Below, in pieces: positions 14,411 through 34,299 of a stretch of DNA of 42,437 nucleotides. The stretch is from assembly GCA_022652945.1 (NCBI GenBank), contig JALCRV010000016.1, positions 1-42,437 of the forward strand. Direction: 5' to 3'. How positions within the stretch are numbered: the first letter of the stretch is position 1; each line of letters starts with the position of its first letter. Source of the DNA: Bacilli bacterium. Lineage in GTDB: Bacteria; Bacillota_I; Bacilli_A; RFN20; CAG-288. The notes below the pieces were generated by a model. That model worked only from the letters and a program-made list of their open reading frames with translations. It did not search any database and was not told the DNA's origin. The position numbers and the translations under genes were made by a program.

Positions 14411-14411
14411 T

Positions 14412-16171: not shown

Positions 16172-16184
16172 GATGTTTCAGTGC

Positions 16185-17606: not shown

Positions 17607-17677
17607 TTTTGTTGCCTGTCTTTCGTTAAATCTTTCTTTATCTTCATCATAAAGAAGGCGGCTCTAAATTAATTAAT

Positions 17678-17713
17678 AAATTAAGTTATCTTTACTTAAT
17701 TTTTAACTTAATT
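17678..17713. promoter_or_regulatory. operator-like inverted repeats in the isomerase/LacI divergent region
   Basis: A palindrome AAATTAAGT-N7-ACTTAATTT spans 17678-17702. A further copy of the half-site, TTAACTTAATT, follows at 17703-17713. The 12-bp sequence ATAACTTAATTT recurs at 17776-17787 in the opposite orientation to 17678-17689. These are candidate binding sites for the adjacent LacI-type regulator, although they lack the central CG of classic LacI operators. Confidence 0.45.
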
Positions 17714-17726
17714 AATGTAAAAATTC

Positions 17727-17755
17727 TTGAAAATGCCTTTTTTAAGGAACATAAT
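17727..17755 (+). promoter_or_regulatory. promoter of the LacI-family regulator (TTGAAA-17-CATAAT)
   Basis: A -35 TTGAAA (17727-17732) and a -10 CATAAT (17750-17755) are separated by 17 nt. The predicted start near 17762 leaves a leader of about 35 nt. That leader contains the repeat copy ATAACTTAATTT, which suits autoregulation. Confidence 0.6.
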
Positions 17756-17796
17756 TGAATTAAGGAAAGGTAAATATAACTTAATTTTTGAGCCTT

Positions 17797-18848: not shown

Positions 18849-19600
18849 TTAATTCGCTTTTTTCTTGTCTGTCTCTTTTTCTTTGTGCTCTATAACATGA
18901 TGATATCCGTAACGATACTTGCCGATTTCATACCCCCCGATACTGCCATATTTTCTTTTTGTGCTTTTCAATGATATATCAGATGCCTTTTCTAAAGTAT
19001 GAGTTGAAATAGCATCTCTTAAGATCATCTCTAAATATTGCTTTTTAGGGGCTTCATCCACAGAATAAAGAACTAGAGCATTGCGGAAATATTTGGCATT
19101 TTTAGCTAGGAATATTTCGTTTAATTCAATGCTTTCCTGCTTTAAAAGCAGGACCATAAATATGGTGCAAGCTCTTGTATTTCCCTCCCTAAAAGGATGG
19201 ATTTTCCACAGTGAAGACAAAAAAGAAGCCACTGTTTTGGAAAGTTCTTCACTTTTTTAATTTTTCCAATTTAAAAGGGTAAATTTTCTGCTCAAATTTT
19301 CAAGTCTTTCAATAATTTCTCGATGAGAAGAATAAACAACAGAAACCCCCCCAATATTGGTTCTTCCTTGAAAATGTCTATAGATCTGACTTGTCCTGCA
19401 AAAGGATATATTTCTCCAAAAATTCTTTTGTGTATCAGAAGAAGATCCATGCACGACTTTATTTCAATTGGATTCTGTAGTAAATCAGCTAATGCTAAAG
19501 AAGCTAAATTGTTTTCGTATTTATCGAGGTCATTTTGTTTCTTCAGCCCAGCGAGATTAATCAATATATTCGTATCGGGATAAACATAAGGATCATTCAT
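18849..19600 (-). pseudogene. Fic-family toxin, disrupted by a frameshift and a nonsense codon
   Basis: The N-terminal part, from MNDPYVYPDTN to KEEPILGG, is in one frame. After a run of seven Gs (plus-strand C7 at 19346-19352) the homology continues in another frame (GVSVVYSSHREIIERLENL). It meets an in-frame TAA at 19257-19259 and resumes in the same frame with the Fic motif HPFREGNTRA and a C-terminal tail. Fic proteins transfer AMP or other phospho-groups to target proteins. With a one-base deletion and a stop before the active site, no full toxin should be made unless both lesions are errors. The ATG overlaps the antitoxin stop by 8 nt, with AAAAGGAG inside the antitoxin gene. Confidence 0.88.
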
Positions 19601-19922
19601 TGCTCAAACTCCTTTTAATCGCAAACACAGCTGTTTCATAATCAATATCTCCGTTAATATAAAGATGAATGATTTTCTTTGTCCTCTTCGATGGCTCTTT
19701 TCCACCGGTCATATTTATAGCACATGCCATTTTTTCAATTTTTTCTTTGTCTTCTTTTGAAGGAAGAGACACATCAAAAGGAAACCCCTGCTTATAAACC
19801 AATTGCTGCAGAAAAATATTTACGGCATAAGAAGTATTGACTCCAAGCATCGAGAGAACTTCTTCGCTTTCTTTTTTAAGCCGCGGATCGATACGCACAT
19901 GAATTATTTCGGTCTTTTCCAT
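19593..19922 (-). CDS. RelB/DinJ-type antitoxin
   Basis: The 109-residue protein has a ribbon-helix-helix N-terminus (EIIHVRIDPRLKKESEEVLSMLG, then TSYAVNIFLQQLV) as in RelB/DinJ antitoxins, and a charged C-terminal region that would bind the toxin. AGGGAAAA precedes the ATG. It lies directly upstream of, and overlaps, the Fic remnant, so the pair was a toxin-antitoxin module. The antitoxin itself looks intact. A perfect palindrome just upstream suggests autoregulation. Confidence 0.88.
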   Translation of the reverse strand: MEKTEIIHVRIDPRLKKESEEVLSMLGVNTSYAVNIFLQQLVYKQGFPFDVSLPSKEDKEKIEKMACAINMTGGKEPSKRTKKIIHLYINGDIDYETAVFAIKRSLSNE

Positions 19923-20077: not shown

Positions 20078-22357
20078 TTATTTTCTGTTATTCAGCATCT
20101 TAATGAACTCATCCCATTCCTCGGGTTTAATCGCGCCTTGGGTAAGCATCACTAAGGTCGAAAGGATTTGGACTTCGATGCCGGTATTCTTCTTCGGCAT
20201 GATATCCATCATCGCTTCCCTAGTCTTCTTATCTCCGCCTAAGCCCATCTTCTCCACTACTTGTCCCATAATGGCGATGGCCTTATCGATAAACGGATGA
20301 GCTTCAGGAATCTTCTCGATATCGCAGATAACAGTTCCATAAGTAACTTTCTCTCGAGCTCCCGGAATGTCTTCGTTTATGACATGCAAAGGGGCGGAAA
20401 GAACAATCTCATGAGCATCCTTACCAATCTGGATCTGATAATCTCCTCCGGCCACTTTCCAATCCTTGGCTTTCACATCGTAGCAAGCGAAGGAACGTTT
20501 ATTTAAAGTGAACTCAACTTCTTTTTCTTCGCCGGGTTTCAAGTTAACTTTCTCAAAGCCTTTTAACTCTCTGACCGGACGGAGGAAATCAGTATCGTTA
20601 AAGCCGACTCCGACATAAAGCTGAACGAGGGCCTTTCCTTCTCTCTTACCGACATTCTTCACTTTCACGCTGGCCTTGATCTCATCTCCGGCCTTAAATG
20701 ACTTAGAAGAAAGCTTCAAATCGGAATAGAGGAAATCCGTATAGGAAAGTCCGTATCCGAAGGGGAAAAGAACCTTAGCTTTCTTAGTCTCATAGTAACG
20801 ATAGCCGACAAAGACGCCTTCCTGATAATGGACGATATCACCTTCTCCGACAAAGGACAGATAAGAAGGATTATCTTCTAATCTTAACGGGAAAGACTCC
20901 GGTAAATGGCCGGAAGGATTAACCTTGCCAAATAAGACATCGGCAATTGCTTCTCCCGCTCCTTCACCGCCGAAATACATATCCAGAACCGCCTCAGGTA
21001 AATCAATCCACGGCATTTCAAGAGGCGAGCCGTTTTCAATGACGATAACCAAATGAGGCTGAACCGCTTTAATCGCTTGAATCAGATCGATCTGCACAGC
21101 CGGCAACTTCATATCCCATCTGTCGTAACCTTCCGACTCCATAACGGTGTACTGGCCGACAAACAGAACCGCCACATCCGCTTCTTTCGCATTCTTTAAG
21201 GCTTCTTCTTTCAACTCCGGATTCACTTTAACCGCCAAGGTCTCATAGCCGTGGCAGCAGGTGACATTCTTCTTATCCTTTAAGGCATCAACGACAGAAA
21301 CAACGTGAGTTGACTGCACCGCTGCGGAGCCGCCTCCGCCGATCTTCATTTCGTATGCCAGATCACCGATAATAGCGATCTTTTTATTATCTTTTAAAGG
21401 CAGAACTCCATCGTTCTTCAATAAGACGATAGATTCCTCTTCGATCTTCTTAGCAATCTGATGGCCTTTATCATAATCGAAAGTCGCACCTTCTTTATGG
21501 GCATCCAAAGTCTTAGTAGCTAAGGCTAAAACATTCTCACAACATTTATCGAGAAGCTTAACATCCAAAGTACCATTCTTCACCGCCTCAACGATTTCAT
21601 TATTAGTCCGATCCTGACATTCCATAGTCAAATCGGTCCCCGCTTTGATAGCTCCGACACGATCATGAGTCGCACCCCAGTCAGAAACCACCGCGCCTTT
21701 ATAACCCCATTCATTCCTAAGGACGTCAGTCATAAAGTACTTGTTAGCGGTCGCATAGGTCCCGTTGATTTTGTTATAAGAAGCCATCAAAGTATCAGGT
21801 TGAGCTTCTTTAACAACCATTTCGAAAGCCGGTAGATAGATTTCTCTTAAAGTTCTTTCATCAACCTCGGAAGAAGAAGTCATTCTTCTGGTTTCCTGGG
21901 AATTGCAGAGATAATGCTTCAAAGAAACACCAACCCCGGCTTTATGGACACCTTTAACATATCCGGTCCCCATCTTGCCAGCCAGGAAAGGATCCTCAGA
22001 GTAATATTCAAAATTACGGCCGCAGAGAGGAGAACGTTTAATACAAACACCCGGGCCTAAAATCATCTGGACGTTTTCCGCTTGGCAGATTTCTCCGATC
22101 GCTTGCCCTTCTTCAAAGGCTAACTCCGGATTAAAGGAAGCCGCGACCGCACATGCGGTCGGGAAAGCGGTAGATTTAACAGTATTCGCCAGATCGATTT
22201 GCTTTCTTAAGCCGTTAGGCCCATCGGACATCCACATGGGTTTAACGCCGATTTCCGGATAGTCTTTAGTCTGCCAGCCGTTTTTACCGGTGGTATAAGC
22301 TGCTTTCTGCTCAAGTGTCATCTTCGAGACAATCGCCTTGATCTCTTTCTCTTTCAT
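20078..22357 (-). CDS. glycoside hydrolase family 3, beta-glucosidase-like
   Basis: The 759-residue retaining exo-acting GH3 enzyme has the (beta/alpha)8 domain with MSDGPNGLRK, the GRNFEYYSEDP and KHYLCNSQE motifs, and the nucleophile Asp in VVSDWGATHDR (near residue 226). The alpha/beta sandwich domain follows (about 300-540) with GYDRWDMKLP, then a fibronectin-III-like domain (about 575-645). About 100 additional residues end the protein. There is no signal peptide, so it is cytoplasmic. GGGAGGAAAA precedes the ATG. It is separated from the upstream GH3 gene by a terminator and has its own promoter with the TTGCAATA element shared by the two binding-protein genes. Sugar specificity is not readable. 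Confidence 0.93.
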   Translation of the reverse strand: MKEKEIKAIVSKMTLEQKAAYTTGKNGWQTKDYPEIGVKPMWMSDGPNGLRKQIDLANTVKSTAFPTACAVAASFNPELAFEEGQAIGEICQAENVQMILGPGVCIKRSPLCGRNFEYYSEDPFLAGKMGTGYVKGVHKAGVGVSLKHYLCNSQETRRMTSSSEVDERTLREIYLPAFEMVVKEAQPDTLMASYNKINGTYATANKYFMTDVLRNEWGYKGAVVSDWGATHDRVGAIKAGTDLTMECQDRTNNEIVEAVKNGTLDVKLLDKCCENVLALATKTLDAHKEGATFDYDKGHQIAKKIEEESIVLLKNDGVLPLKDNKKIAIIGDLAYEMKIGGGGSAAVQSTHVVSVVDALKDKKNVTCCHGYETLAVKVNPELKEEALKNAKEADVAVLFVGQYTVMESEGYDRWDMKLPAVQIDLIQAIKAVQPHLVIVIENGSPLEMPWIDLPEAVLDMYFGGEGAGEAIADVLFGKVNPSGHLPESFPLRLEDNPSYLSFVGEGDIVHYQEGVFVGYRYYETKKAKVLFPFGYGLSYTDFLYSDLKLSSKSFKAGDEIKASVKVKNVGKREGKALVQLYVGVGFNDTDFLRPVRELKGFEKVNLKPGEEKEVEFTLNKRSFACYDVKAKDWKVAGGDYQIQIGKDAHEIVLSAPLHVINEDIPGAREKVTYGTVICDIEKIPEAHPFIDKAIAIMGQVVEKMGLGGDKKTREAMMDIMPKKNTGIEVQILSTLVMLTQGAIKPEEWDEFIKMLNNRK

Positions 22358-22410: not shown

Positions 22411-22443
22411 AGTTTAGCAAAGAAAGGTGGTACGATATTGCAA
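22411..22443 (-). promoter_or_regulatory. GH3 promoter with shared TTGCAATA element
   Basis: On the minus strand TTGCAATATC (TTGCAA at 22438-22443) is followed 21 nt later by the extended -10 TGCTAAACT (hexamer 22411-22416), 53 nt before the ATG. The same TTGCAATA-to--10 spacing occurs at two binding-protein promoters in this window. Confidence 0.55.
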
Positions 22444-22464
22444 ATTCCATACCACCGTTGCAAT
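22426..22464. promoter_or_regulatory. interleaved inverted repeats at the GH3 promoter
   Basis: GGTGGTA (22426-22432) pairs with TACCACC (22450-22456), and ATTGCAA (22437-22443) pairs with TTGCAAT (22458-22464). The arms alternate. The two TTGCAA cores are 20 bp apart, about two helical turns. They could be two overlapping operators for different regulators. Confidence 0.45.
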
Positions 22465-22486
22465 AAATAACTTAAAGCACAAGTTT

Positions 22487-22585
22487 AAGAATAAAAAGAG
22501 CGGCCTTTTTGATGTGTACCCCTCCTCTCGGGCACTTAACGGTGTCCAGGATTCGGGGTACACATCATTTTTCAAAAGCCGCTTT
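22487..22585 (-). terminator. terminator of the NagZ-like GH3 gene, loop enlarged by an inserted palindromic element
   Basis: On the minus strand the outer stem GCGGC/GCCGC (22578-22582 with 22500-22504, extended by A-T and G-U pairs) is followed by TCTTTTT. This is a normal terminator for the gene ending at 22620. Its loop contains a separate long palindrome (see the mobile-element entry), so the structure is about 85 nt instead of 25. Confidence 0.7.
22510..22567. mobile_element. 58-bp palindromic insertion, MITE-like
   Basis: Perfect 13-bp terminal inverted repeats, TGATGTGTACCCC and GGGGTACACATCA, enclose a second imperfect repeat, GGGCAC/GTGTCC, around a 6-nt apex. The element is flanked on both sides by TTTTT or TTTT, possibly a target duplication, and it sits in the loop of a terminator that is complete without it. 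The ends (TGTACCCC...GGACAC) look like insertion-sequence terminal repeats. No transposase is present. Confidence 0.5.
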
Positions 22586-22619
22586 GATAATATGATCAGA
22601 AAATTTAAGTCAGGAGTCT

Positions 22620-24422
22620 TTAGAAATGAGTATCGAGAAGACCGCAGAAAGCATCGACCGGGGAGACTCCTTTGAACTCGCTCTTCCCTTCAAGCTTATC
22701 GATCAAAGCTGCAATTGTGGTCTCATGGGAATCGTAGCAGTTAATAAAGGTCTTGACCTGAGAGACATCCGCCAGATGGAAAGGACAGTTAAAGGAAACG
22801 AAAATCGTCGGCAATTCATTGACATACCAAGGATTATCCCAGCCGCCTTTGGAGATTGCCCACTCCAAACGCTGAGTAGTCCTCATCGTCCCGGAGACAT
22901 TGGCGAAGCAGATAACCAAATCATAATTATCGGTTAAGGCATGGACGGATTGTTTCATCCCGTACATTCCTTTCGAACCGCCAGCCATCTGGCCGGATTT
23001 CATCATATTAGCGAAAGCATCCGGGCCCATCTGCTGCATCATCTGTTTCATCTTCGCAATCGGATCGACATAAATCTCAACCTTGTGACCGAGCGCTTCT
23101 AAACGAGCTTTCAGATTCTCGGTTAATTTTGAGCCGTCGACCGCCATCCCCGCACCAACCAGGAACGGATCCGGATGCGGACCGACCGGGACCAGAAGAA
23201 TTTTCTTATATTTAGCAGCGGTAATCGGAAGGATATTTTCCGTATGTTTCACTAAGGTAATTCCCTTATCGGAAACTTCTTGTGCTACTCCAGCATTCTC
23301 TTTCGCTCCAACAACAGCTAAGCCCTCTTTAGGAGGGAACTTGTCCAAGGTGAAATCAGCAAGACCGACATGAGCCTTCAAACCAAGAATTCTGGTTAAA
23401 GCCTCGTTTAGTCTTTCCTGGGTAAGTCTTCCATCTAAGACGGCATCCTTCATGTATTGGGTATCTTCTTCGATATTATTGAAGAAGAGGAACATATCGC
23501 AGCCGGCGATGATCGCTCCCGGAACTAAATCGCTTCGTTTCGCTCTTCCCGCAACTCCGACCATGTGGGAAGCATCGGAAACGATTACCCCGTTAAAACC
23601 AAGCTTATTTCTTAAAAGATCAGTTAATAGCTCTTTAGAAATGGTGGCGGGTTTTAAGTCTTCATCTTTAAGCCCTTTATTAAAATATCTTTCGTAAGCC
23701 GGCATAATGATATGTCCGGGCATCACGGCTTCAATCCCCGCTTCAATCAGGCCTTTATAAACCTTGCCGAAGCTCTTGTCCCATTCTTCGCAGGATAAGG
23801 AGTTTACGGAAGTGGCGATATGCGGATCTCTTTCATCAGTCGCATCTCCCGGGAAATGTTTCATCGTGCAGGCGATATGCGATTCATGGGCTCCGCGGAT
23901 ATATTCTTTTGAAAACTTTAAGACCAACTCAGGATCAGCGCCCCAACCGCGGGTCGCGATGCCAGGATGATGCCAATTCAAGACTAAATCAGTGACCGGA
24001 GCAAAGGTCCAGTTAGAGCCGACCGCTCTGGTTTCCAGACCAGCGATTCTTCCTAATTCATAAGCGTAATGCGGATCTTTAGTAGCGGCGATTTTCATTT
24101 CGGAACCGACGAAAGTGCCGTCTTTAGCTGCTCCGTTACCACCCATTTCAGCATTGACCGCCGAAAGGACAGGGATTTTAGAGAACTTATCAAAATTATA
24201 GTTCATCTCCCAGACTCTTTCTTTCGGTCCGGGATTGAAACGGATGCCGCCCATCTTGCAGGCTTGAACATCTTCTTTCACATCCTTTTCCTCAACCGAT
24301 CCGGTCAGATGGATAAATAACTGTCCGATTTTTTCATCGAGAGTCATCCCTTTGATCGTGTCTTCCACCCACTTGATTTGCTCTTTAGTCAGATTGAACG
24401 GCTTCTTAGATAAATCTACCAT
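22620..24422 (-). CDS. glycoside hydrolase family 3, NagZ-like N-domain
   Basis: The 600-residue GH3 enzyme begins with DTIKGMTLDEKIGQLF and contains CTMKHFPGDATDERDPH (near residue 186). This resembles the K-H-F-P-G...D-x-H general-acid loop of beta-N-acetylhexosaminidases (NagZ). The nucleophile Asp is in VIVSDASHMVG (near residue 282). A C-terminal alpha/beta domain follows (about 370-600), so it has two domains, like longer NagZ relatives. There is no signal peptide. It lies 27 nt after a HAD phosphatase gene and is the likely end of the epimerase-HAD-GH3 operon. Hexosaminidase or glucosidase activity is possible. AAAAGGAGG precedes the ATG. Confidence 0.9.
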   Translation of the reverse strand: MVDLSKKPFNLTKEQIKWVEDTIKGMTLDEKIGQLFIHLTGSVEEKDVKEDVQACKMGGIRFNPGPKERVWEMNYNFDKFSKIPVLSAVNAEMGGNGAAKDGTFVGSEMKIAATKDPHYAYELGRIAGLETRAVGSNWTFAPVTDLVLNWHHPGIATRGWGADPELVLKFSKEYIRGAHESHIACTMKHFPGDATDERDPHIATSVNSLSCEEWDKSFGKVYKGLIEAGIEAVMPGHIIMPAYERYFNKGLKDEDLKPATISKELLTDLLRNKLGFNGVIVSDASHMVGVAGRAKRSDLVPGAIIAGCDMFLFFNNIEEDTQYMKDAVLDGRLTQERLNEALTRILGLKAHVGLADFTLDKFPPKEGLAVVGAKENAGVAQEVSDKGITLVKHTENILPITAAKYKKILLVPVGPHPDPFLVGAGMAVDGSKLTENLKARLEALGHKVEIYVDPIAKMKQMMQQMGPDAFANMMKSGQMAGGSKGMYGMKQSVHALTDNYDLVICFANVSGTMRTTQRLEWAISKGGWDNPWYVNELPTIFVSFNCPFHLADVSQVKTFINCYDSHETTIAALIDKLEGKSEFKGVSPVDAFCGLLDTHF

Positions 24423-24448
24423 GGCATATGCCTCCTTTTAATAATTTC

Positions 24449-25294
24449 TTAGTTATCGAAACTAGCGTAGAATTCTTTCATCAGCTGATCTTGATACTTC
24501 CCGTATTCGCCTTTGAAGAAAATCGGCAGATATATGTTCTTTAAATCAGCCCAGCTTTTCTCTTCGCCTTTAACCATAATCGGATAAAAATAAACTCCTT
24601 GTGATTCGGCTGCGGTGATATCCGGGAAAGCATCTCCTATCATCAGGACATGATCTTTGTTATAGCCTTTAGGCAACAATTTACCGATGATAGCTCCCTT
24701 GGTCCCATCTTCTTGGGAAGCCAAGACATCAGCTAGCTCCGCTAAGCCATAATGATTCCATTCTTCTTCCAAGGCTTTCGCGCCCGCTCCGGAAACCGCG
24801 GCTACATCGCCTTTTCCTCTCATCGCTTGGAAAGCTTCCTTGACACCTTTAAAAGGCTTCTTATCATCAAAAGTAAGTTTTTTTATAGCTTCGTTGGTCT
24901 TCTCTGACCATTCGAGGGTCTTTTTTAAAACCTCACTATGAGTTTTTTCAATCGCTTCTTTTAGGCTTTTAGTCGATAATTCACCCGATTTATTAACCCA
25001 ATCATCAAGGAAAGAAAGATCTTTGATATCCAGATACTTTCCTTGATATTCTTTTAAAATTTTCAGCAATGTCACGTATCTTAACTGCCCGCGGCTTTTT
25101 TCATAAAGATTGATCTGATTCCATCTTTTTAAGGCTTCTTCTTTATGAGCCTCAAGACCAAATTCCTCAACAAAACAAGGACCGAAGCATTTAAAATGCT
25201 TAATGTTCATAGTGTCCATCGCCGTCCCATCGGAATCGATGCAGATCAAGTATGGATAGTTCTGATGAAAAGCGGCGATAGTCTTATCTGACAT
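24449..25294 (-). CDS. HAD-superfamily hydrolase
   Basis: The 281-residue phosphatase-like protein has motif I as CIDSDGTAMDTM (nucleophile Asp in D-x-D-G-T), a central KPFKGVKEAFQAMRGKGDVAAVSGAG segment (motif II Ser) and motif IV GDAFPDITAA. A helical cap of about 100 residues lies between motifs I and II. It probably removes phosphate from a sugar phosphate in the cytoplasm. AAGAGGTAAC precedes the ATG. It is 100 nt downstream of the epimerase gene. An AT-rich stretch with TATAAT (minus strand, 25330-25335) may give it its own promoter. Confidence 0.88.
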   Translation of the reverse strand: MSDKTIAAFHQNYPYLICIDSDGTAMDTMNIKHFKCFGPCFVEEFGLEAHKEEALKRWNQINLYEKSRGQLRYVTLLKILKEYQGKYLDIKDLSFLDDWVNKSGELSTKSLKEAIEKTHSEVLKKTLEWSEKTNEAIKKLTFDDKKPFKGVKEAFQAMRGKGDVAAVSGAGAKALEEEWNHYGLAELADVLASQEDGTKGAIIGKLLPKGYNKDHVLMIGDAFPDITAAESQGVYFYPIMVKGEEKSWADLKNIYLPIFFKGEYGKYQDQLMKEFYASFDN

Positions 25295-25394
25295 TTCCGT
25301 TACCTCTTATTATAATTTTATTTAAGCATATTATATCGTCATATCTCTTGTAATCTTTTAAATTTTTATGCATTTAATTAGTTAATCTTTATAT

Positions 25395-26246
25395 CTAATT
25401 TTTCTTAACATTCTCATTAAGGAAAACTGAGGACTGCTTCATCGAAGTTAGAGCGGACTTTTCAACCCAGTTTTGATGACTCTCCAGGATAATCGCTTCA
25501 ACTTGGTTTTCCTCCGCTTGCTTAATAAAGCCGATTAAGTCTAAGTTCCCGTATCCCAGTTCCACACTATCGGACTTAACGATAGAATTTACTTTCCCTT
25601 TAATTCTCGTCCCTCGGTCATTGATGTGATAAAGGCGCATCCGTTTACCGAGGATTTTCATGTACTCTAAAGGGTTCTTCCCGGCCTCCGCCATCCAATA
25701 AGAATCAAATTCAAAATTAACAAAAGAAGGATCTGTCTTATCAATTATTAAGTCGTAAGCCTTCTTTTCCCCGCAAACGATTAATTCGCAGTTGTGGTTA
25801 TGATAAAGCAATTCGAGATTTCGTTCTTTCATCAGTCTTCCCGCATTATTTAAGTCGGAGATTAATTTTTCAACTTCAATCTTGGAAGAATAATCAAGGT
25901 TTCTGACCCCGGTGATAACGATGAACTTCGTGGCGAACGAATCAGCCAACTTTTTAATCTCATCGGGTTTATTTAAGACGGAATTCAGATCTTCATGTAA
26001 GGCTATGACTTTAAGACCGGACTCTTTAATTAAGGACACCCAGTTTATTTTTTTCGAAGAGCCGATTGTCATTCCCGCCGCCTTTGCCATCAAGCGGATA
26101 GAAAGGGGGAGCCTATTTATCAAAAAGGCATCAAGTTCAATGCCATCAAAGCCAGCTTCCTTTACTTCTTTTAAGGTGGCTAAGGCCATCTGAGGATTCT
26201 TGAATTCATTCCGAAGTTGGAACTGCTGAACACCCTTTAATGCCAT
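25395..26246 (-). CDS. sugar phosphate isomerase/epimerase family protein
   Basis: The 283-residue TIM barrel is of the xylose-isomerase-like/AP-endonuclease-2 class. Metal-site positions are visible in order: LLYHNHN, FEFDSYW, LYHINDRGT and IILESHQNW. Members isomerise or epimerise sugars, sugar acids or inositol derivatives. AGGAGGGAAG precedes the ATG. It is divergent from an AraC regulator (26440) and upstream of the HAD and GH3 genes, which suggests one regulated sugar operon. The substrate is unknown. Confidence 0.9.
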   Translation of the reverse strand: MALKGVQQFQLRNEFKNPQMALATLKEVKEAGFDGIELDAFLINRLPLSIRLMAKAAGMTIGSSKKINWVSLIKESGLKVIALHEDLNSVLNKPDEIKKLADSFATKFIVITGVRNLDYSSKIEVEKLISDLNNAGRLMKERNLELLYHNHNCELIVCGEKKAYDLIIDKTDPSFVNFEFDSYWMAEAGKNPLEYMKILGKRMRLYHINDRGTRIKGKVNSIVKSDSVELGYGNLDLIGFIKQAEENQVEAIILESHQNWVEKSALTSMKQSSVFLNENVKKN

Positions 26247-26407
26247 CTTCCCTCCTTAATAACCTACTTCAATTTTAAATTCATCTTATCAATCCTTATT
26301 GTAGAAATTACGAGCGATTATCAATAAAACATAATTGATAAAAGAAAAGGAAAAATGCCTTACAATTTGAAATATCTTATAAAAATACAAAAAAATGAAT
26401 TTTAGTC

Positions 26408-26427
26408 TATAATTACCTCAGAGGTAA
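26408..26427 (+). promoter_or_regulatory. promoter and operator of AraC regulator 1
   Basis: The -10 TATAAT (26408-26413) runs into a perfect palindrome TTACCTC-A-GAGGTAA (26413-26427) that covers the predicted start near 26420. A protein bound there would block transcription. The rest of the 26247-26439 gap is AT-rich and must also hold the promoter of the divergent epimerase gene, which I could not place with confidence. Confidence 0.55.
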
Positions 26428-26439
26428 ATATTACAACAA

Positions 26440-27654
26440 ATGGATATCAAGACCCTGATATGGCTATGTGAAAACGACACGGGGCTTTTAGATTATCCGG
26501 TTTCCGTTTACCTGGATGGAAAAAGGCAAGCAGGTTTCCGTGTTCTTGAAGATATTCCGCTTAATCCTTTTGCAAAATTTGAGCAAACGATTTTTAAAAG
26601 CGATAAAAAGGTCGATTTCCTTATCAATAATGACCTCTTAGCTTTTGGAGTCATCATAGATAACGAATCAAGGGCCAAAGTTCTAATCGGCCCGGTCGCC
26701 ATCGGGACTCTACCTCCGCAGATAATCCGCAATATCATCATCGATTCCAAGATTGATTTAAGGAATTCCGATAAGCTTACTAACTATCTTAAAGGCCTTA
26801 AAAAGATTACTTTCGCTGAATTTCGAATGCTGACTTTCGCCTTTTATACCGCGGTCAATCATGAGTTAATCCAGGATTCCAACCCAGATTACTCCTTAAG
26901 CCATACCCAAGCTATTATCGAAGATACTTATAATGAATCGATTCAAGTGGAAGAAAGTACCGGTGAGTTAGATGGTGCAGCCTTTTCTAAATACTTTGAA
27001 GACCGCTCTATTATGTACATCAAAAACGGCGAGCCGGATAAATGGTCGGATTTCGCTCCTAGCAACTACCGCCACCGGACTTCCCTTCTGACTTCTTTAG
27101 ATGAAAAAAGAGAATTCAAAGATCGTTGCATCTCTTCCATCGCTATCTTAACCAGGGAAGCCATCGAGGCCGGGTTAGATGTCGAAACCGCCTATATCAT
27201 CACTGACCTTTATATCCTGAAAATTGAAAACGCCACCTCGATTGAGCAGATGGCCGCCATTCAGCTTTCTCTGATGAGAGATCTCTGCACCCGGGTCGGT
27301 AATCTTAAGATCAGAGAAACCGCTAATCCGACCATCAACCGTTCCATCACTTACGTTAACGAACATCTGAAAGAAAAGCTGAACACTAAGTTGGTCGCCG
27401 AGGCTCTTCATATCTCCCCGAACTATCTTTCGACTTATTTCAAACAAGAAACGGGGATTAATTTTATGAATTATATCTCCGATATGAAGATCGAAGAAGC
27501 TAAACGTTTATTAAAATTAACCGATAAATCCCTAGCGGATATTTCTAACTATCTTTCCTTCTCGTCCCAATCGTACTTTCAGAACGTCTTTAAATGGCTG
27601 ACAGGCAAGACGCCGACTGAATATCGGGAAGACACCAAAAAAGCCAAAAATTAA
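26440..27654 (+). CDS. AraC-family regulator 1
   Basis: The 404-residue regulator has an N-terminal sensor domain of about 290 residues, PAS/GAF-like in appearance (LAFGVIIDNESRAKVLIGPVAIG). The C-terminal AraC-type double helix-turn-helix begins AEALHISPNYLSTYFKQETG and ends DISNYLSFSSQSYFQNVFK. It is strongly similar to the regulator at 33106-34299 along the whole length. There is no good ribosome site next to the ATG; AGAGGT lies about 14 nt away, within the operator palindrome. It is divergent from the epimerase-HAD-GH3 genes and convergent with a sugar-binding lipoprotein gene. Confidence 0.92.
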   Translation: MDIKTLIWLCENDTGLLDYPVSVYLDGKRQAGFRVLEDIPLNPFAKFEQTIFKSDKKVDFLINNDLLAFGVIIDNESRAKVLIGPVAIGTLPPQIIRNIIIDSKIDLRNSDKLTNYLKGLKKITFAEFRMLTFAFYTAVNHELIQDSNPDYSLSHTQAIIEDTYNESIQVEESTGELDGAAFSKYFEDRSIMYIKNGEPDKWSDFAPSNYRHRTSLLTSLDEKREFKDRCISSIAILTREAIEAGLDVETAYIITDLYILKIENATSIEQMAAIQLSLMRDLCTRVGNLKIRETANPTINRSITYVNEHLKEKLNTKLVAEALHISPNYLSTYFKQETGINFMNYISDMKIEEAKRLLKLTDKSLADISNYLSFSSQSYFQNVFKWLTGKTPTEYREDTKKAKN

Positions 27655-27675
27655 TGCTGAACAAATGGACCTACT

Positions 27676-27701
27676 AAAAAAGCTGCCGAAGCAGCTTTTT
27701 T
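27676..27701. terminator. bidirectional terminator between AraC 1 and binding protein 1
   Basis: The stem AAAAAAGCTGC/GCAGCTTTTTT with a CGAA loop (UUCG on the minus strand) serves both convergent genes. Confidence 0.92.
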
Positions 27702-27720
27702 AGTCTCTTAACGTCAGCGA

Positions 27721-29553
27721 CTACATGTTGTCGTAGGCTGTCTGCAGAGCGGTGGTTGCATCCGTAATCTTGTACTTATTGATTGCGGCAAGATAACCAT
27801 TCCAAGTCGAATCATTATTGATATCAGCTTCACCGGTGATCATCTTCGGGCACCATTTATTAAGGAAATCGGTAGCTTGAGTGTTGACCTTGGTGTAATT
27901 CACTGCAGCATCCCCGCTCAGTTTACCGGTAGCTCCGTAGAACAAATAGAAATTGGAGGTAAAGTAATCCCACTGAGCCAAAGAGCGAGTAAAGACCGCC
28001 GGACGATTAGTATAAGAACCGTTGTACGGTCCAAGACGACGACCGATCGTACGGTTATTCTTAACGACTCCTTGCAGACTGTCATTTTCAGCAATCTTGG
28101 CATCCAGAGTCCAAAGCTTCTTCCCGGTCGAAGTCCCTTCGACCCAATCAGCGCCTGTGGAATCGACATAATGATAAGCGCCATTAGTAAGCCCGTTCTT
28201 GATATAAAGCGGATCCTGAGTTTCTTCCTCTTCCTCTTTAGATAAGCCGGCCGAGCAAAGCATCACTCCTTCATCGGAATACATATAATCAAACATTCTT
28301 AACAAAGCCGGAAGATCCTTATCCTGAGCCTTGTTAGTAACTACCACGGAGGAATTTGTCAGACCAATCTGGTAGAAAGACACAGGGTTGACATTCTGAA
28401 TATCAGAAGTCCCCAGGGTCGTATTGATCGGCTGCTTGGCTCCGAAGACACAGATGCCATTAGTGTAACCATCAGTCGCACTGTTGGGTTTGCCTTCAGA
28501 AATATCCAAGCCATCATTGAAGGCGGCCAAAGTTCCATACCACATCCCGACCTTGCCCTGATGGACCTTGGTGGAATCAACCTGATAGAACATATCAGAA
28601 GTATGCTCAGCGAATTTAGTGTCGATATAGCCGGCCTTGTACCACTTGTTCATCAACTTCAGGTACTCGCGGAAAGCCGAGGTATTGCCACCAAACCCGA
28701 TGGTCTTATTGTCATCCTTCAGATAAAACATCGGCGCGACGCCAAATGAGGCGGCTAAATCCCCCGTCCCATAATAACCACCGTAAGGGATGCTCATGCA
28801 ATAGCCGTCGCTGATTCCTTCACCAGCTAAAGCCTTCTTAAAGATCGGAAGCATCCATTCCCAGTCCGCAAAAGTCTTCGGATCGGTCTCGCCCGACGGG
28901 AAGACGACATCATCGGTCCAGACCTTATTAGCATCATATCCGCCCGTAAAAGCAGCGTTGGTGGTCGGATTAGTTCCGTATTTCACCAGCCAATCGCGAC
29001 GGTAACAGAATCCGCCCCAGGAGTTATTGGTGTCGTTAACGTCCCAAAGCTCGATGTTCTTGGTTTCTCCGTCGATCTTCGAAGTGCAGAGCTTCTTATA
29101 AAGCGGCCTGTCATCAAGCCATTTCTTATAATTAGGCATGTACTTATCGACATAATCGGTAAGATCCAAGGCTATGCCCTGATCATAAAGATCTTGAATC
29201 GTTCCGATACTCTTATAGTAATTGACATCCATGATGTCGGTATAATCGCCTGAGCCAATCATCGTGGAAATGACCTTGCTCGCATCACCGGTAGCCGGCG
29301 AAGAGAAGGCAACGCTGACTTTAGCGTTATTGTCGCCCCAAGTCTTATGATTCAGTAAGAAGTTCATAGTGGGGTTCTTTTCAAAGGAAGAATAATAGCT
29401 CGTATCATCTCCAGTGGACAGGAAATAAGTGAAATCCGCGCTCTTATTCGAGCCGGAATTTACGCCTTCTGAAGTAGTCCCGCCACAACTAGTTAAGAAT
29501 GTCGCCGCCACTAAAGCGACAAGAAGAAGCTTTCCGGATCTTTTTAGACTCAT
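27721..29553 (-). CDS. extracellular sugar-binding lipoprotein 1 (ABC importer)
   Basis: The 610-residue substrate-binding protein is of the large LplA/YtcQ-like type. The lipoprotein signal is MSLKRSGKLLLVALVAAT, ending in the lipobox L-T-S-C. The mature protein is typical of oligosaccharide binders (NPTMNFLLNHKTWGDN, SGDYTDIMDVNYYK, GGFCYRRDWLVKYGTNP). I start at the ATG at 29553, which has GGAGGTAAGGA upstream, rather than five codons earlier. It is a close paralogue of the protein at 31097-32938. No permease genes are adjacent, so it must work with a transporter encoded elsewhere. Confidence 0.93.
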   Translation of the reverse strand: MSLKRSGKLLLVALVAATFLTSCGGTTSEGVNSGSNKSADFTYFLSTGDDTSYYSSFEKNPTMNFLLNHKTWGDNNAKVSVAFSSPATGDASKVISTMIGSGDYTDIMDVNYYKSIGTIQDLYDQGIALDLTDYVDKYMPNYKKWLDDRPLYKKLCTSKIDGETKNIELWDVNDTNNSWGGFCYRRDWLVKYGTNPTTNAAFTGGYDANKVWTDDVVFPSGETDPKTFADWEWMLPIFKKALAGEGISDGYCMSIPYGGYYGTGDLAASFGVAPMFYLKDDNKTIGFGGNTSAFREYLKLMNKWYKAGYIDTKFAEHTSDMFYQVDSTKVHQGKVGMWYGTLAAFNDGLDISEGKPNSATDGYTNGICVFGAKQPINTTLGTSDIQNVNPVSFYQIGLTNSSVVVTNKAQDKDLPALLRMFDYMYSDEGVMLCSAGLSKEEEEETQDPLYIKNGLTNGAYHYVDSTGADWVEGTSTGKKLWTLDAKIAENDSLQGVVKNNRTIGRRLGPYNGSYTNRPAVFTRSLAQWDYFTSNFYLFYGATGKLSGDAAVNYTKVNTQATDFLNKWCPKMITGEADINNDSTWNGYLAAINKYKITDATTALQTAYDNM

Positions 29554-29575
29554 TGTCCTTACCTCCAAAGTTATG

Positions 29576-29591
29576 ACAGAGAATCCTCTGT
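29576..29591. promoter_or_regulatory. small palindrome in the binding protein 1 leader
   Basis: ACAGAG-AATC-CTCTGT is a perfect 6-bp inverted repeat between the -10 box and the ribosome site. It may be an operator or a leader hairpin. Confidence 0.3.
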
Positions 29592-29601
29592 TTATAATTT
29601 A

Positions 29602-29634
29602 ATGTTAACCTCATCTAACAAACAGATATTGCAA
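29602..29634 (-). promoter_or_regulatory. binding protein 1 promoter with shared TTGCAATA element
   Basis: On the minus strand TTTGCAATATC (TTGCAA at 29629-29634) is followed 21 nt later by TAACAT (29602-29607), 48 nt before the ATG. The 11-bp TTTGCAATATC is identical to that at the GH3 promoter. Confidence 0.55.
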
Positions 29635-29728
29635 AAAAAACGTAGTTTTTGTATTTATCTAATGAATGTAAGCCCTTAGAAATGAAGCAATATAATGACC
29701 AATCAATTTCTCTTTAGGCAAGAATAGT

Positions 29729-30613
29729 CTATAAATCCTTCTTAAGAAGCTGTCTATACTCTTTCGGGCTGCACCCTTTTTCTTTCTTAAAAGTCTCGCT
29801 GAAGTAAGAAGGGGACTCAAAGCCAACCGCGGAAGAAATTTCGCTGATATCCTTAGTAAAATCACTTAAAAGCTCACCGCTCTTTTGGATGCGAAATGAT
29901 AAAAGATAAGAAATCGGTGAAGCGTGGAGCATCTTAGTAAAAAGGTGAGAGGCATAACCAGGACTAATAGAGGCCGCCTTAGCAATCGAATCTACATCGA
30001 TCTTTTCTTGATAATGATTGTAGATAAAAGACAGCATTCTTTTAACTAAGAGAGCTTTATCGGAAGAATCCAGCTTCGTTTCTTTTTCCTGCCCTTGCAA
30101 AGAAAGAAAAGCGGCCCAAAAGTCATATAGGCCTGAAAGGAGCTTTAATTGATAGCCGTCTTTCTTCTCTTGGATTTGTTTTAACATAACGTCCAGGTCT
30201 TCTTTCAATCTGGCGCATTTATCCGCCGGAAAAATCAAAAAGGGCAGCTTAGTATTCTCCCTTAAAGGAGAAATGTAATTATCAGCGATTTCCTTGCTGG
30301 CGCTTAAAAGACTAGGAGAAAAGACTAAACATAAATAGGTGGAGTCTTCCCCGTTCTCGCTATAGCCGTAATGCGGGCATTTCGCATTGATAAAAATCCC
30401 TTCGCCTTCTTTTAAAACCACGTTTGTTCCATTTACAAAGTAGGAAGGATTGCCCTTCTCTACCAAAAAGAACTCAAACTCCTGATGCCAATGACAAAGA
30501 ACTCTCTTAGAAGGATAAAGACTTAAAGAACTCCTCCGAAGATACAAAGGAAAAGATGGATCATCATAATGTAAGATCTCCGATTGATCGGGAAGAACGG
30601 TTAAAATATCCAT
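29729..30613 (-). CDS. AraC-family regulator 3 with N-terminal cupin
   Basis: The 294-residue regulator has an N-terminal cupin-type sugar-sensing domain (HWHQEFEFFLVEKGNPSYFVNG). The C-terminal AraC helix-turn-helix pair (DSIAKAASISPGYASHLFTKML, then EISSAVGFESPSYFSETFKKE) is followed by the usual GCSPKEYR. It is of a different subtype from regulators 1 and 2. I take the ATG at 30613; the TTG at 30631 lies upstream of a TATAAT box and would be outside the mRNA. It is upstream of binding protein 1 and in the same direction, with a 175-nt gap that contains that gene's own promoter. Confidence 0.92.
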   Translation of the reverse strand: MDILTVLPDQSEILHYDDPSFPLYLRRSSLSLYPSKRVLCHWHQEFEFFLVEKGNPSYFVNGTNVVLKEGEGIFINAKCPHYGYSENGEDSTYLCLVFSPSLLSASKEIADNYISPLRENTKLPFLIFPADKCARLKEDLDVMLKQIQEKKDGYQLKLLSGLYDFWAAFLSLQGQEKETKLDSSDKALLVKRMLSFIYNHYQEKIDVDSIAKAASISPGYASHLFTKMLHASPISYLLSFRIQKSGELLSDFTKDISEISSAVGFESPSYFSETFKKEKGCSPKEYRQLLKKDL

Positions 30614-30619
30614 AAATTC

Positions 30620-30648
30620 ATTATATATCAAGATAGCAGTTTTGTTAT
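30620..30648 (-). promoter_or_regulatory. promoter of AraC regulator 3, start site at the ATG
   Basis: On the minus strand TATAAT (30620-30625) has a fair -35, ATAACA (30643-30648), at 17 nt. The A of the ATG is the seventh base after the -10, so the mRNA is likely leaderless. No Shine-Dalgarno is present. Confidence 0.5.
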
Positions 30649-30703
30649 ATTTTAAAGCTGTTTATTAAATGTTTATGTGTAATATAAGCATTATTATGAT
30701 GTT

Positions 30704-30958
30704 ATGGAAAGCATCATGACATCCACGAACCGAGCGAAAGCGCTCAACATCATCAGAAGCAAAGAATTCTTAAAGACTCCTTCTTGGGCCACCTTCTTCT
30801 ACTACGTCCAAGAGAGAGAAACTTTAATGGATTTTTATGACTTCCTGCTCGATGAAGGGTTCATATCGCTCGAACAGCCGCATGAAGTAACCTCTACAAA
30901 CTTCAACGCCAAGCTCATGGATCATAAAGGCCGTCTTATCGTCCTCCGTTCGGAATAA
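30704..30958 (+). CDS. small hypothetical protein
   Basis: The 84-residue charged, soluble protein is unrecognised. It starts MESIMTSTNRAK and has two amphipathic helices (ALNIIRSKEFLK, YYVQERETLMDFYDFLLDEGF) followed by a short beta-like tail. An alternative start is the internal ATG four codons in. There is no clear ribosome site before either. A good terminator 40 nt downstream on the same strand and its divergence from AraC regulator 3 support a real gene. Confidence 0.6.
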   Translation: MESIMTSTNRAKALNIIRSKEFLKTPSWATFFYYVQERETLMDFYDFLLDEGFISLEQPHEVTSTNFNAKLMDHKGRLIVLRSE

Positions 30959-31000
30959 AAGTTAAATAAGAAAGGAAAAGACTTTTATAAGAAAGGAAAT

Positions 31001-31025
31001 ACCCGCCCTGAAACGGCGGGTTTTT
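31001..31025 (+). terminator. terminator of the small gene
   Basis: The stem ACCCGCC/GGCGGGT with a 7-nt loop is followed by TTTT on the plus strand. Confidence 0.88.
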
Positions 31026-31040
31026 AAATACAAAATATCA

Positions 31041-31069
31041 AAAAAGCGGAAGGGTGTTAAACCTTTCCG
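31041..31069 (-). terminator. terminator of binding protein 2
   Basis: On the minus strand CGGAAAGG pairs with CCTTCCG (one bulge) and TTTTTTG follows. It lies about 30 nt after the stop codon. Confidence 0.75.
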
Positions 31070-31096
31070 TTAATAGAAACCAGGCGTTAGATCAGA

Positions 31097-32938
31097 TTAG
31101 AGATTATCGTATACGTTCTGGAGAAGCGCAACAATATCAGCCGGCTTATATTTATTTAAGCCTGAGCAGAAACCGTTCCAAGTAGAATCGCTGTTGATAT
31201 CCGCGCTGCCGCTAATCATCTTCGGAGTATTCTTAAATAAGAAATCGTTGATTTTAGCAACAGTCTGGCCATATAAAGTGGCATTATCTCCGGTTAAAGA
31301 GCCAACCGTCGCGGTCATCAGATCGGTCACAGTTTCAAACTTATTCCATTCACCCCAGCGATACTTTATGTAATCAGCCTTATAAGGCAGCCAAGCGTTA
31401 TTAGCAGCACCGAACCTTCTTCCCACCACACGATTATTGAAAACGCAGGTCTGCAGTTCATCATTGCCATTAAGCAAAGGATTGAATCTTCTTAACTTCT
31501 TGCCAGTCGAGGTCCCTTCAACCCACTTCTCGCCTTTTTCATCGCAATACCACCAGGCACCGTCAGTTAACCCGTTAGCGGTATAGAGAGGATCTTTAGT
31601 TAATTCATATTGCTCTTTAGTTAAGCCATTCTGGTCTAAGAGAGTCCCTTCATCGGTATAAAGATAATCCAGCATCGATAACAGAGCCGGAAGATTCTTA
31701 TCCCTAGCTTTATTAGTAATAACGATAGAAATAGGGACCAGACCGCCGCGGTAGAAAAGGAACGGTTCGATCTTCTGCATCGAAGGAGTCCCGTACTTAT
31801 CATTGATTGGCAGACGAGCACCAGCGACATAGATTCCGTTGGTATATCCGTTGGTCGCATTGTTTTCTTTGCCTTCGGAGATATCCATCAGATTGCATAA
31901 GGAAGAGGTCATGCCATACCATAAGCCGACCTTACCCTGATGGACGGAAGCCGTATCAATCATATAGAAAGAATCGTTAGTTCTCTCAGCGAATTTCTTA
32001 TCGATATACCCCTTCTTATACCAATCGTTCATCAGCTGCAGATAAGCGCGGAAATTATCGCTATTTCCGCCAAACTGATACTTATGATCCGGATCGAGGA
32101 AGAAATTATAAGAAGTCCCAAAGGAAGAAAGGACATCACTGGTCGGCTCGAAGCCCTCGTAAGGAATCTGGAGAGCATAACCATCGCTGATGCCTTCACC
32201 AGCCATTGCTTTCTTAAAGATTCCCAGCATCCATTCCCAATCGGAAAGGTAAATCGGATCAGTTTCCCCCGAAGGGAAAATTACATCATCAGTCCAGTTC
32301 TTGTCAGCATCGTAGCCTCCTTTAAAGGCTGCATTAGTCTTCGGATTGGTTCCGTACTTTACCAACCAATCGCGACGGTAACAGAATCCACCCCAAGGAT
32401 CGGCAGTGTCGTTTACCATATAAATCTCAAGGTACTTATCTTCCCCGTCGATTTTAGAGGTAGAGAGTTTTTTATAGTTAGGATGATCATCAAACCACTT
32501 CAGATAATTAGGCATATACTGCTTAACATAGGAAGTAAGATCCAAAGAGATCCCTTGGTTATAAAGATCAGGGACAGTTCCGACCTGGCCTTTATAATAC
32601 GAAGTATCAATAATATCGGTATAATCACCCGAGGCCATCATCGTCGAAAGAGCCGAAGTGGCTTCCCCGGTCGCCGGAGTCTGGAATTCGATGGAGATCT
32701 TATCGTTATTAGGTCCCCAGGTCTTGTAGTTTAATAGATAGTTCATCACGGGATTCTTCTGATAAGAAGGATAATATGAAGTCGGATCACCAGTCCCGAG
32801 GAAATAAGTAAAGTCACCGTTAAGGTTATTCGCTTGACTACCGGAACTCTCGGAAGTGCTACCACCGCATCCAGTAAGGACTGCAGTCGTACAAATCAAA
32901 GCTAAGGCTAGACTCATAAATCTTACTTTTCTTCCCAT
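31097..32938 (-). CDS. extracellular sugar-binding lipoprotein 2 (ABC importer)
   Basis: The 613-residue substrate-binding lipoprotein has a signal MGRKVRFMSLALALICTTAV and the lipobox L-T-G-C. It is paralogous to binding protein 1 throughout: SGDYTDIIDTSYYKG, WGGFCYRRDWLVKYGTNPK, EGISDGYALQIPYEG, VHQGKVGLWYG and the C-terminal ISGSADINSDSTWNGF all have counterparts. AGGAGGTAAT precedes the ATG. It is divergent from AraC regulator 2, its probable regulator. It probably binds a related but distinct oligosaccharide. The permeases are not in the window. Confidence 0.93.
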   Translation of the reverse strand: MGRKVRFMSLALALICTTAVLTGCGGSTSESSGSQANNLNGDFTYFLGTGDPTSYYPSYQKNPVMNYLLNYKTWGPNNDKISIEFQTPATGEATSALSTMMASGDYTDIIDTSYYKGQVGTVPDLYNQGISLDLTSYVKQYMPNYLKWFDDHPNYKKLSTSKIDGEDKYLEIYMVNDTADPWGGFCYRRDWLVKYGTNPKTNAAFKGGYDADKNWTDDVIFPSGETDPIYLSDWEWMLGIFKKAMAGEGISDGYALQIPYEGFEPTSDVLSSFGTSYNFFLDPDHKYQFGGNSDNFRAYLQLMNDWYKKGYIDKKFAERTNDSFYMIDTASVHQGKVGLWYGMTSSLCNLMDISEGKENNATNGYTNGIYVAGARLPINDKYGTPSMQKIEPFLFYRGGLVPISIVITNKARDKNLPALLSMLDYLYTDEGTLLDQNGLTKEQYELTKDPLYTANGLTDGAWWYCDEKGEKWVEGTSTGKKLRRFNPLLNGNDELQTCVFNNRVVGRRFGAANNAWLPYKADYIKYRWGEWNKFETVTDLMTATVGSLTGDNATLYGQTVAKINDFLFKNTPKMISGSADINSDSTWNGFCSGLNKYKPADIVALLQNVYDNL

Positions 32939-32982
32939 AAATTACCTCCTGAAAAGCGTATTAGCTTGCTTAAGATACATAA

Positions 32983-33015
32983 ATCATAAGGAAAACCGGA
33001 AAATATTTATTGCAA
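32983..33015 (-). promoter_or_regulatory. binding protein 2 promoter with shared TTGCAATA element
   Basis: On the minus strand CTTGCAATAAA (TTGCAA at 33010-33015) is followed 21 nt later by TATGAT (32983-32988), 44 nt before the ATG. The layout is the same as at the GH3 and binding protein 1 promoters. Confidence 0.55.
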
Positions 33016-33057
33016 GATACACCGAAAAATTTCACTTGGTAACCTTGAAGTAAGCCC

Positions 33058-33086
33058 TTACTTATCCTTCTGAATATACATATAAT
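33058..33086 (+). promoter_or_regulatory. promoter of AraC regulator 2 (TTACTT-17-TATAAT)
   Basis: A -35 TTACTT (33058-33063) and a -10 TATAAT (33081-33086) have 17-nt spacing, 20 nt before the ATG, which has its own AAAAGGAAA ribosome site. Confidence 0.65.
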
Positions 33087-33105: not shown

Positions 33106-34299
33106 ATGGATAAAAGCATCTTCAAGTGTATCGTTGAGAATGATGAATCCGTTTCGGACTACGAAGCGGCCATTTATATAGGAAGCACTAGGCTTTCCTC
33201 TATCCATATCTCCAGGGGGGCTTTCGCTTTTATTCCTCATTACGAAAAAGAACTGCTGAAGTCGAAGGAGAACATCAGCTTTCTAGTTACTTCTTCCCTC
33301 CTCGCTTTTGTACGCATTAAAGATAAGGAGTCGAATCTATCGGTCATCATCGGACCGGCGATGATAGGAAAACACTCTCCGGATATGGTTAATAAAGTCG
33401 CCGAGGCAACCGGCTTAGATCCTAAAAAAGACGATAAGTTCATTAAAGCTTTAGGCTTACTAAAAAGAACCGTTCCTCACACCTTCTATTCCAACGTTTA
33501 TAACCTTTATGTCTTTATCAACCATGAAATGCCCGAAGAAACAATGCTGAACAAAGAAATGGAAGCCACCAACACCCTGTTGATGGATTCCTATCAAAAA
33601 AGCATCGAGGCCATGGATAACGAAGCGATGGAAGGAGCCAATTACTGCAAATATTATGAAGATATGCTGGTCTATTATATTCAAAACGGCCAACCTGATC
33701 ATTTCTTCGATGTCGTCCCGGAAGTCTATCACGAAAGAAAGATCCTGCTATCTCTAGATGAACTAAGGGCTTATAAAGACCGCGCCATCTCTCTAGTCTC
33801 CGTCATCAGCCGCGAAGCGATTGAAGGAGGGCTAGATCCGGATTCCTCTTATATCCTTAACGATATGTACATCCAGAAAATCGAACATGAGGATAAAAAA
33901 GACGGTGTCGATGTCCTCGTCCATACTATGCTGGTCGATTACTGCACCAGAATCGGCCAATCAAATGTCAAAAAGACCGCTAATCCGACGATCAATCGAG
34001 CTATCGATTACGTCAATGAGCATCTGAGGGAAAAGCTCAATACCGGCAACGTCTCCAAGGCGCTTCATATTTCCTCCAATTATCTTTCTTCCCGCTTTAA
34101 AGCGGAAACTAATATGAACTTCACCTATTACATCTCCATGATGAAAATCGAAGAAGCGAAAAGGCTGTTAGCCAGGACTGATAAGCCTCTTTCAGATATT
34201 TCAAATTATCTGGCCTTTTCCTCCCAGTCCTACTTCCAGAATGTCTTTAAAGAGATCGCTGGGCTCACCCCTTTAGAATACCGTAATCAAAATAAGTAA
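33106..34299 (+). CDS. AraC-family regulator 2
   Basis: The 397-residue paralogue of regulator 1 has the same N-terminal sensor region (ISFLVTSSLLAFVRIKDKES...VIIGPAMIG). The C-terminal helix-turn-helix domain is nearly identical (NPTINRAIDYVNEHLREKLNT, ISNYLAFSSQSYFQNVFKE, TPLEYRNQNK). AAAAGGAAA lies 7-8 nt before the ATG. It is divergent from binding protein 2, and is therefore likely to activate that gene in response to a sugar or its transport state. Confidence 0.93.
   Translation: MDKSIFKCIVENDESVSDYEAAIYIGSTRLSSIHISRGAFAFIPHYEKELLKSKENISFLVTSSLLAFVRIKDKESNLSVIIGPAMIGKHSPDMVNKVAEATGLDPKKDDKFIKALGLLKRTVPHTFYSNVYNLYVFINHEMPEETMLNKEMEATNTLLMDSYQKSIEAMDNEAMEGANYCKYYEDMLVYYIQNGQPDHFFDVVPEVYHERKILLSLDELRAYKDRAISLVSVISREAIEGGLDPDSSYILNDMYIQKIEHEDKKDGVDVLVHTMLVDYCTRIGQSNVKKTANPTINRAIDYVNEHLREKLNTGNVSKALHISSNYLSSRFKAETNMNFTYYISMMKIEEAKRLLARTDKPLSDISNYLAFSSQSYFQNVFKEIAGLTPLEYRNQNK

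Follow-up and report, generated by a model that had tools for sequence, protein, structure and literature searches.

A TTnCAA direct repeat marks a probable AraC-type carbohydrate regulon of at least 20 promoters in a Bacilli bacterium

Genes for sugar binding and sugar cleavage in this Bacilli genome share a promoter element built from two copies of TTnCAA. We consider it highly probable that this repeat is an AraC-type activator site, that its proximal half stands in place of the -35 box, and that it is served by a subfamily of about ten paralogs across at least 20 promoters. A search of the open literature found no description of this regulon.

The window analyzed here is a stretch of 42,437 nt. 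A first-pass annotation had reported a literal pattern, TTGCAATA-N19-TANNNT, at three minus-strand promoters, and we recovered it exactly where it was claimed (22411-22443, 29602-29634, and 32983-33015). The hexamers that follow are likewise as described: TAAACT before a GH3 glycoside hydrolase gene, TAACAT before binding protein 1 (BP1), and TATGAT before binding protein 2 (BP2). These boxes lie 53, 48, and 44 nt from the respective ATG, matching the proposed range of 44-53 nt, and the extended 11-mer TTTGCAATATC is indeed common to the GH3 and BP1 promoters. The literal pattern is real yet too literal, as TTGCAA is one version of TTnCAA. Beyond this general form, we find a second half-site 20 nt further upstream and a fourth site in the window (26272-26324, minus strand), which was detected by a scoring matrix upstream of an isomerase-HAD-GH3 gene group. 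Co-orientation and spacing suggest that this group (22620..26246) is probably an operon. The window features are as follows.

20078..22357, minus: GH3 glycoside hydrolase, target gene (PF00933, PF01915, PF14310)
22411..22416, minus: -10-like box TAAACT, GH3 promoter (pattern match)
22438..22443, minus: proximal half-site TTGCAA, GH3 promoter (pattern match)
22458..22463, minus: distal half-site TTGCAA, GH3 promoter, 20 nt upstream of the proximal one (exact composite)
22620..26246, minus: TIM-barrel isomerase (25395-26246), HAD hydrolase (24449-25294), and second GH3 (22620-24422)
26272..26277, minus: -10-like box TAAAAT, fourth site, 26 nt before the ATG (scoring matrix)
26299..26304, minus: proximal half-site CTACAA, fourth site (matrix score 22.6, outside the training set)
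26319..26324, minus: distal half-site TTGATA, fourth site (scoring matrix)
26440..27654, plus: AraC-family regulator, expanded subfamily, divergent from the isomerase-HAD-GH3 genes
27721..29553, minus: binding protein 1, lipoprotein, 58% identical to binding protein 2
29602..29607, minus: -10-like box TAACAT, binding protein 1 (pattern match)
29629..29634, minus: proximal half-site TTGCAA, binding protein 1 (pattern match)
29649..29654, minus: distal half-site ATACAA, binding protein 1
31097..32938, minus: binding protein 2, lipoprotein, relative of family 1 solute-binding proteins
32983..32988, minus: -10-like box TATGAT, binding protein 2 (pattern match)
33010..33015, minus: proximal half-site TTGCAA, binding protein 2 (pattern match)
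33030..33035, minus: distal half-site GTGAAA, binding protein 2, weak (3/5)
33106..34299, plus: AraC-family regulator, expanded subfamily, divergent from binding protein 2

The GH3 enzyme at 20078..22357 has an exo-alpha-L-arabinopyranosidase as its top NCBIfam match, under that family's cut-off. In its promoter alone, the proximal TTGCAA lies within a perfect inverted repeat of 7 bp, GGTGGTA-N17-TACCACC (22426-22456, minus strand), which is possibly a second operator or a hairpin. Pfam and NCBIfam profile searches with the two binding proteins returned no match. Binding protein 2 resembles the solved family 1 members 5gub, 5gx8, and 5xs8 (E ~1e-6 over 107 residues), and it is on these matches that the two proteins (27721-29553 and 31097-32938) show similarity to extracellular solute-binding protein family 1.

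Within the window, 0.02 matches to the literal pattern are expected against 3 seen, and none of 100 shuffles reaches 3, figures that carry the caveat that the pattern was picked post hoc. Across the 2.09-Mb genome it occurs 7 times, compared with 5 for a reversed control, and TTGCAATA alone shows no genome-wide enrichment (44 versus 57). Counts alone are thus unconvincing, and genome counts of the literal 8-mer or 33-mer were set aside as an uninformative test. The genome scan proposed in the first-pass annotation was nevertheless borne out in the identity of the genes, if not in the raw count: five of the seven matches immediately precede a GH3, GH2, or binding-protein gene, while one of the other two is within a transporter gene and one is upstream of an efflux-pump-like gene.

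The decisive evidence that the element is real comes from a spacing test on promoters selected by protein homology alone, namely, the upstream regions of the 11 paralogous binding proteins of ~600 aa found in the genome (loci L008-L018). In 6 of these 11 promoters, TTnCAA precedes TAnnnT by exactly 21 nt, and in 4 by exactly 41 nt. All other spacings of TTNCAA-Nk-TANNNT, with k from 5 to 44, occur in 0-2 promoters each. None of 2000 dinucleotide-preserving shuffles matched this result, also when the two window genes were removed. Since 41 is 21 plus 20, a second site lies 20 nt further upstream (measured from its end), head to tail with the first. The element is thus the direct repeat TTnCAA-N14-TTnCAA-N21-TAnnnT.

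Half-sites of this kind are directly repeated about 20-21 bp apart, as in class II activation, with the distal half degenerate at some members. Among 12 sites, an exact distal TTNCAA is found at a distance of 20 nt in four and of 21 nt in one, with at most one exact copy at any other distance. The 21-nt interval is constant across 20 sites aligned without gaps, placing the proximal half-site over the -35 region at a fixed distance from the -10 box. Four exact copies of the full composite occur in the genome. One precedes a binding-protein gene and one a lipoprotein-LplB-YtcP permease operon; the other two lie before the window GH3 gene and before the gene of an 891-aa protein whose downstream neighbor is a GH43 enzyme. 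Some binding-protein promoters fit poorly (L010 and L014), and in others the proximal half is degenerate (L013 and L015).

Genome-wide, the element appears to define a set of at least 20 promoters, driving sugar-binding proteins, sugar-cleaving enzymes, esterases, and one permease operon. A sequence-only model of 11 sites (R1), whose training sites were partly chosen by eye beforehand, recovered these sites together with nine weaker matches outside the training set. Seven of the nine lie just upstream of carbohydrate genes: a GH2, three GH3 enzymes, a GH78, a SASA carbohydrate esterase, and an alpha/beta hydrolase. These seven keep the 21-nt spacing, although singly they are too weak for significance. 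R1 matches at C3:130769 and C9:28208 fall in coding DNA or have no fitting gene downstream and were treated as noise. Sites at C5:97567 and C2:160376 were discarded for want of a suitable gene close downstream or for a poor score.

A second-round model of 20 sites (R2) adds one GH78 and one GH35-like promoter, among noise-level matches. At E ≤ 0.02, R2 finds 18 matches in its own genome and 0-2, all weak, in each of the other genomes among the 273 of the order. As R2 was trained on this genome, its own-genome count serves as a specificity control and not as independent proof; the low counts elsewhere indicate that, at the sensitivity of R2, the regulon is confined to this genome. The three-promoter regulon originally proposed was thus right in kind and too narrow in scope. 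An AraC-type element over the -35 region of a sugar regulon is upheld by the fixed spacing and the sugar-gene targets. Coordination of import with cleavage also stands, the targets being binding proteins, the permease operon, and glycoside hydrolases. The idea that all of them serve the same oligosaccharide is not supported, the targets including GH2, GH3, GH43, GH78, and GH35-like enzymes, esterases, and most of the 11 different binding proteins.

Close relatives of the binding proteins were found nowhere else in the genus or family, and the order yielded a handful of matches, mostly partial and weak. A scan of named genomes with binding protein 2 returned two remote homologs, neither with a site upstream of the binding-protein gene; one of the two loci has a single motif match elsewhere. 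The stretches examined contain a single LplB/YtcP permease pair (C12:35912-37873), which may thus serve many of the binding proteins.

The genome encodes 27 AraC-type proteins, 10 of which have the distinctive N-terminal region seen in the window regulator at 33106-34299. S[ST]QSYFQN is present in the second recognition helix of all ten members of this subfamily and is absent from the 17 other AraC proteins. Most of the ten genes are divergent from, or beside, a binding-protein or glycoside hydrolase gene. Of the three AraC regulators previously noted among the window's sugar genes, two belong to the subfamily (26440-27654 and 33106-34299), and the third, a cupin-type AraC at 29729-30613, has a different helix and falls outside it. 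Both subfamily members end in a C-terminal double helix-turn-helix, with PF12833 and PF00165 above cut-off. The top NCBIfam match of 33106-34299, along almost the whole regulator, is TIGR04094, with 134.6 bits against a cut-off of 200. The subfamily is thus related to TIGR04094 (adjacent_YSIRK) without being a member of it. Separately, at L213:12691-14898 and 14985-15836 (C1), a GH78 rhamnosidase with a strong site (33.3) comes immediately after another kind of AraC-type gene, one without the S[ST]QSYFQN helix.

These observations bear on how many activators are at work. The first-pass annotation invoked one, and it is conceivable, though rather unlikely, that one AraC paralog or some other master regulator binds every site, the other paralogs having other roles or acting at a local site only. 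The identical TTnCAA core and spacing at all sites would suit such an arrangement. Several targets also lie far from any subfamily AraC gene, which fits a single regulator and makes the pairing of regulators with targets tentative. Against it, ten paralogs have kept the same second recognition helix, and most of them have their own target next door or in divergent orientation, with the site in the shared intergenic region. A single activator is thus not supported.

Our preferred reading is that a dimer of an AraC-family activator binds the two head-to-tail TTnCAA half-sites, 20 nt apart (21 in one case). The proximal half-site, ending 21 nt before the -10 box, would occupy the -35 position. 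Bound in this way, the activator would reach over the -35 region and contact sigma region 4 to bring in RNA polymerase, as in class II activation. Activation by dimers of the ten-member subfamily is suggested by the half-site that replaces the -35 box at a fixed 21 nt from the -10 box, which is the class II arrangement. The activators are most likely the approximately ten AraC paralogs, two of them in the window and most divergently placed beside a target, which together would control at least 20 promoters of binding proteins, one permease operon, glycoside hydrolases, and esterases. We infer the binding, the class II mechanism, the inducers, and which paralog acts where from sequence, whereas the element, its constant spacing, the genes it precedes, its presence near homologous regulators elsewhere, and the shared helix are directly observed.

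The same footprint is seen beside homologous regulators in other genomes. Elsewhere in the order, 27 genomes encode distant homologs of the subfamily N-terminal region, typically with a GH3, GH2, or sugar-transporter gene in divergent orientation beside them. We scored 31 regions beside such homologs with a matrix trained on this genome alone. A site on the divergent strand at p < 0.05 was present in 14 of the 31 regions, including those of all five most similar regulators (Fisher ~1e-9, near-duplicates dropped). The opposite strand of the same regions gave 7 of 31 (Fisher 2e-3), somewhat above the shuffle null. Among 38 control promoters from the same stretches, three had p ≤ 0.01, all of GH78 or GH3 genes. 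A plain spacing count across the 31 regions gave no peak at 21 and was nonsignificant; the full matrix alone was informative. The clearest case, in genome G236, is an AraC gene followed by TTTTGCAA-N14-ATGCAA-N21-TAATAT 31 nt before a GH3 gene, after which come two permease genes (LplB-YtcP), a lipoprotein, and a homolog of the binding proteins.

Several promoters carry a second recurrent feature. At BP1, BP2, C12:34281, C12:52871, and C12:55420, the proximal half-site is preceded at 45-48 nt by a cre-like palindrome, GNAAGNGCTTNC. The copies are as follows.

29668..29679, minus: cre-like palindrome CTAAGGGCTTAC, BP1, 45 nt upstream of the proximal half-site
33050..33061, minus: cre-like palindrome GTAAGGGCTTAC, BP2, 46 nt upstream of the proximal half-site
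C12:34236, C12:52823, and C12:55374: other copies of GNAAGNGCTTNC

Intergenic matches of at least 8/9 (counted on the plus strand) number five in 110 kb, and four of them are at this 45-48 nt position. In several relatives, the palindrome is instead just downstream of the proximal half-site. CRP pairs with AraC, RhaS, or MelR at promoters, and the palindrome together with the AraC-type site resembles such pairings by analogy. It is possible, and we advance this tentatively, that different sugars sensed by the approximately ten paralogs with one operator core converge on, or compete for, shared targets, and that the LacI/CcpA-type palindrome at several promoters forms a composite like that of CRP plus AraC.

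The palindrome could also be read differently, with the TTnCAA sites being repressor operators or being bound by another family, such as a LacI-type protein. Its fixed position at -45 to -48 relative to several sites is compatible with this, and AraC-family proteins can repress. However, a direct repeat of constant orientation is what AraC pairs, unlike LacI dimers, typically bind, and boxes that replace the -35 box suit activation, making this explanation very improbable. Slightly less credible again is recognition of the element by an alternative sigma factor as its -35 box. TTGCAA is similar to TTGACA and sits near -35, but a 21-nt spacer exceeds what sigma-70-type factors can span, and the spacing in ordinary promoters from the same stretches peaks only slightly, if at all, at 17. 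Moreover, neither a second copy 20 nt upstream nor sites beside homologous AraC genes in other genomes would be expected of a -35 box. An alternative sigma factor is thus unlikely on three counts: the spacing, the head-to-tail repeat, and the association with AraC genes. We give almost no credence to chance selection of an 8-mer in AT-rich promoters, which would account for the unremarkable genome-wide counts of the literal sequences but not for the spacing test, the out-of-sample matches upstream of sugar-enzyme genes, or the footprint in other genomes.

AraC-type activation is familiar from the Escherichia coli promoters araBAD, rhaBAD, and melAB, where a pair of AraC-family proteins occupies direct half-sites ~21 bp apart beside the -35 box, with a global regulator upstream. 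The promoters described here are alike in their direct half-site pair beside -35 and a second box upstream. They differ in having a cre-like palindrome in place of the CRP site, many targets, and approximately ten activator paralogs. Another parallel is AggR of enteroaggregative E. coli, an AraC-family activator that binds 21-22 bp upstream of the -10 box, overlapping and replacing the -35 box, with a proposed contact to sigma region 4 (PMC6392122). AggR, in contrast, uses a single site, an A/T tract plus TATC, at fimbrial and other genes (PMC6392122), whereas here a direct repeat precedes sugar genes. At the Pm promoter, an AraC-family dimer, XylS, binds two direct repeats with TGCA boxes that overlap the RNA polymerase site (PMC5481539). 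Its repeats are 15 bp long, with a box A (TGCA) and a box B (GGTA), whereas our half-sites have one conserved box each and lie at carbohydrate genes. A paper on EbrB of Enterococcus faecium (PMC3669262) names the YSIRK-adjacent AraC regulators of TIGR04094. The regulators described here adjoin sugar genes in place of surface antigens. We regard the regulon as new but of a familiar kind, unusual in how far its likely activators have multiplied.

The element provides a sequence-level definition of a carbohydrate regulon in a small-genome lineage. It predicts targets for approximately ten otherwise unassigned regulators and would give the orphan binding proteins a link with enzymes and a permease operon. 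It may also provide a naturally occurring example of duplicated regulators that keep a common operator, where cross-talk among the paralogs is directly testable.

The window holds several other features. An operon at 13058-18804, divergent from a LacI-family-like regulator, encodes a sulfoquinovose-isomerase-like protein (105 bits, cut-off 700), an apparent split transketolase in two frames, and a carbohydrate kinase. At 18849-19922, a Fic-like frame is apparently broken into two open reading frames, preceded by one that, by eye, resembles a RelB/DinJ-like antitoxin. Finally, a very long, repetitive, surface-protein-like open reading frame with a C-terminal membrane segment spans 36690-42425 and is open at the contig end.
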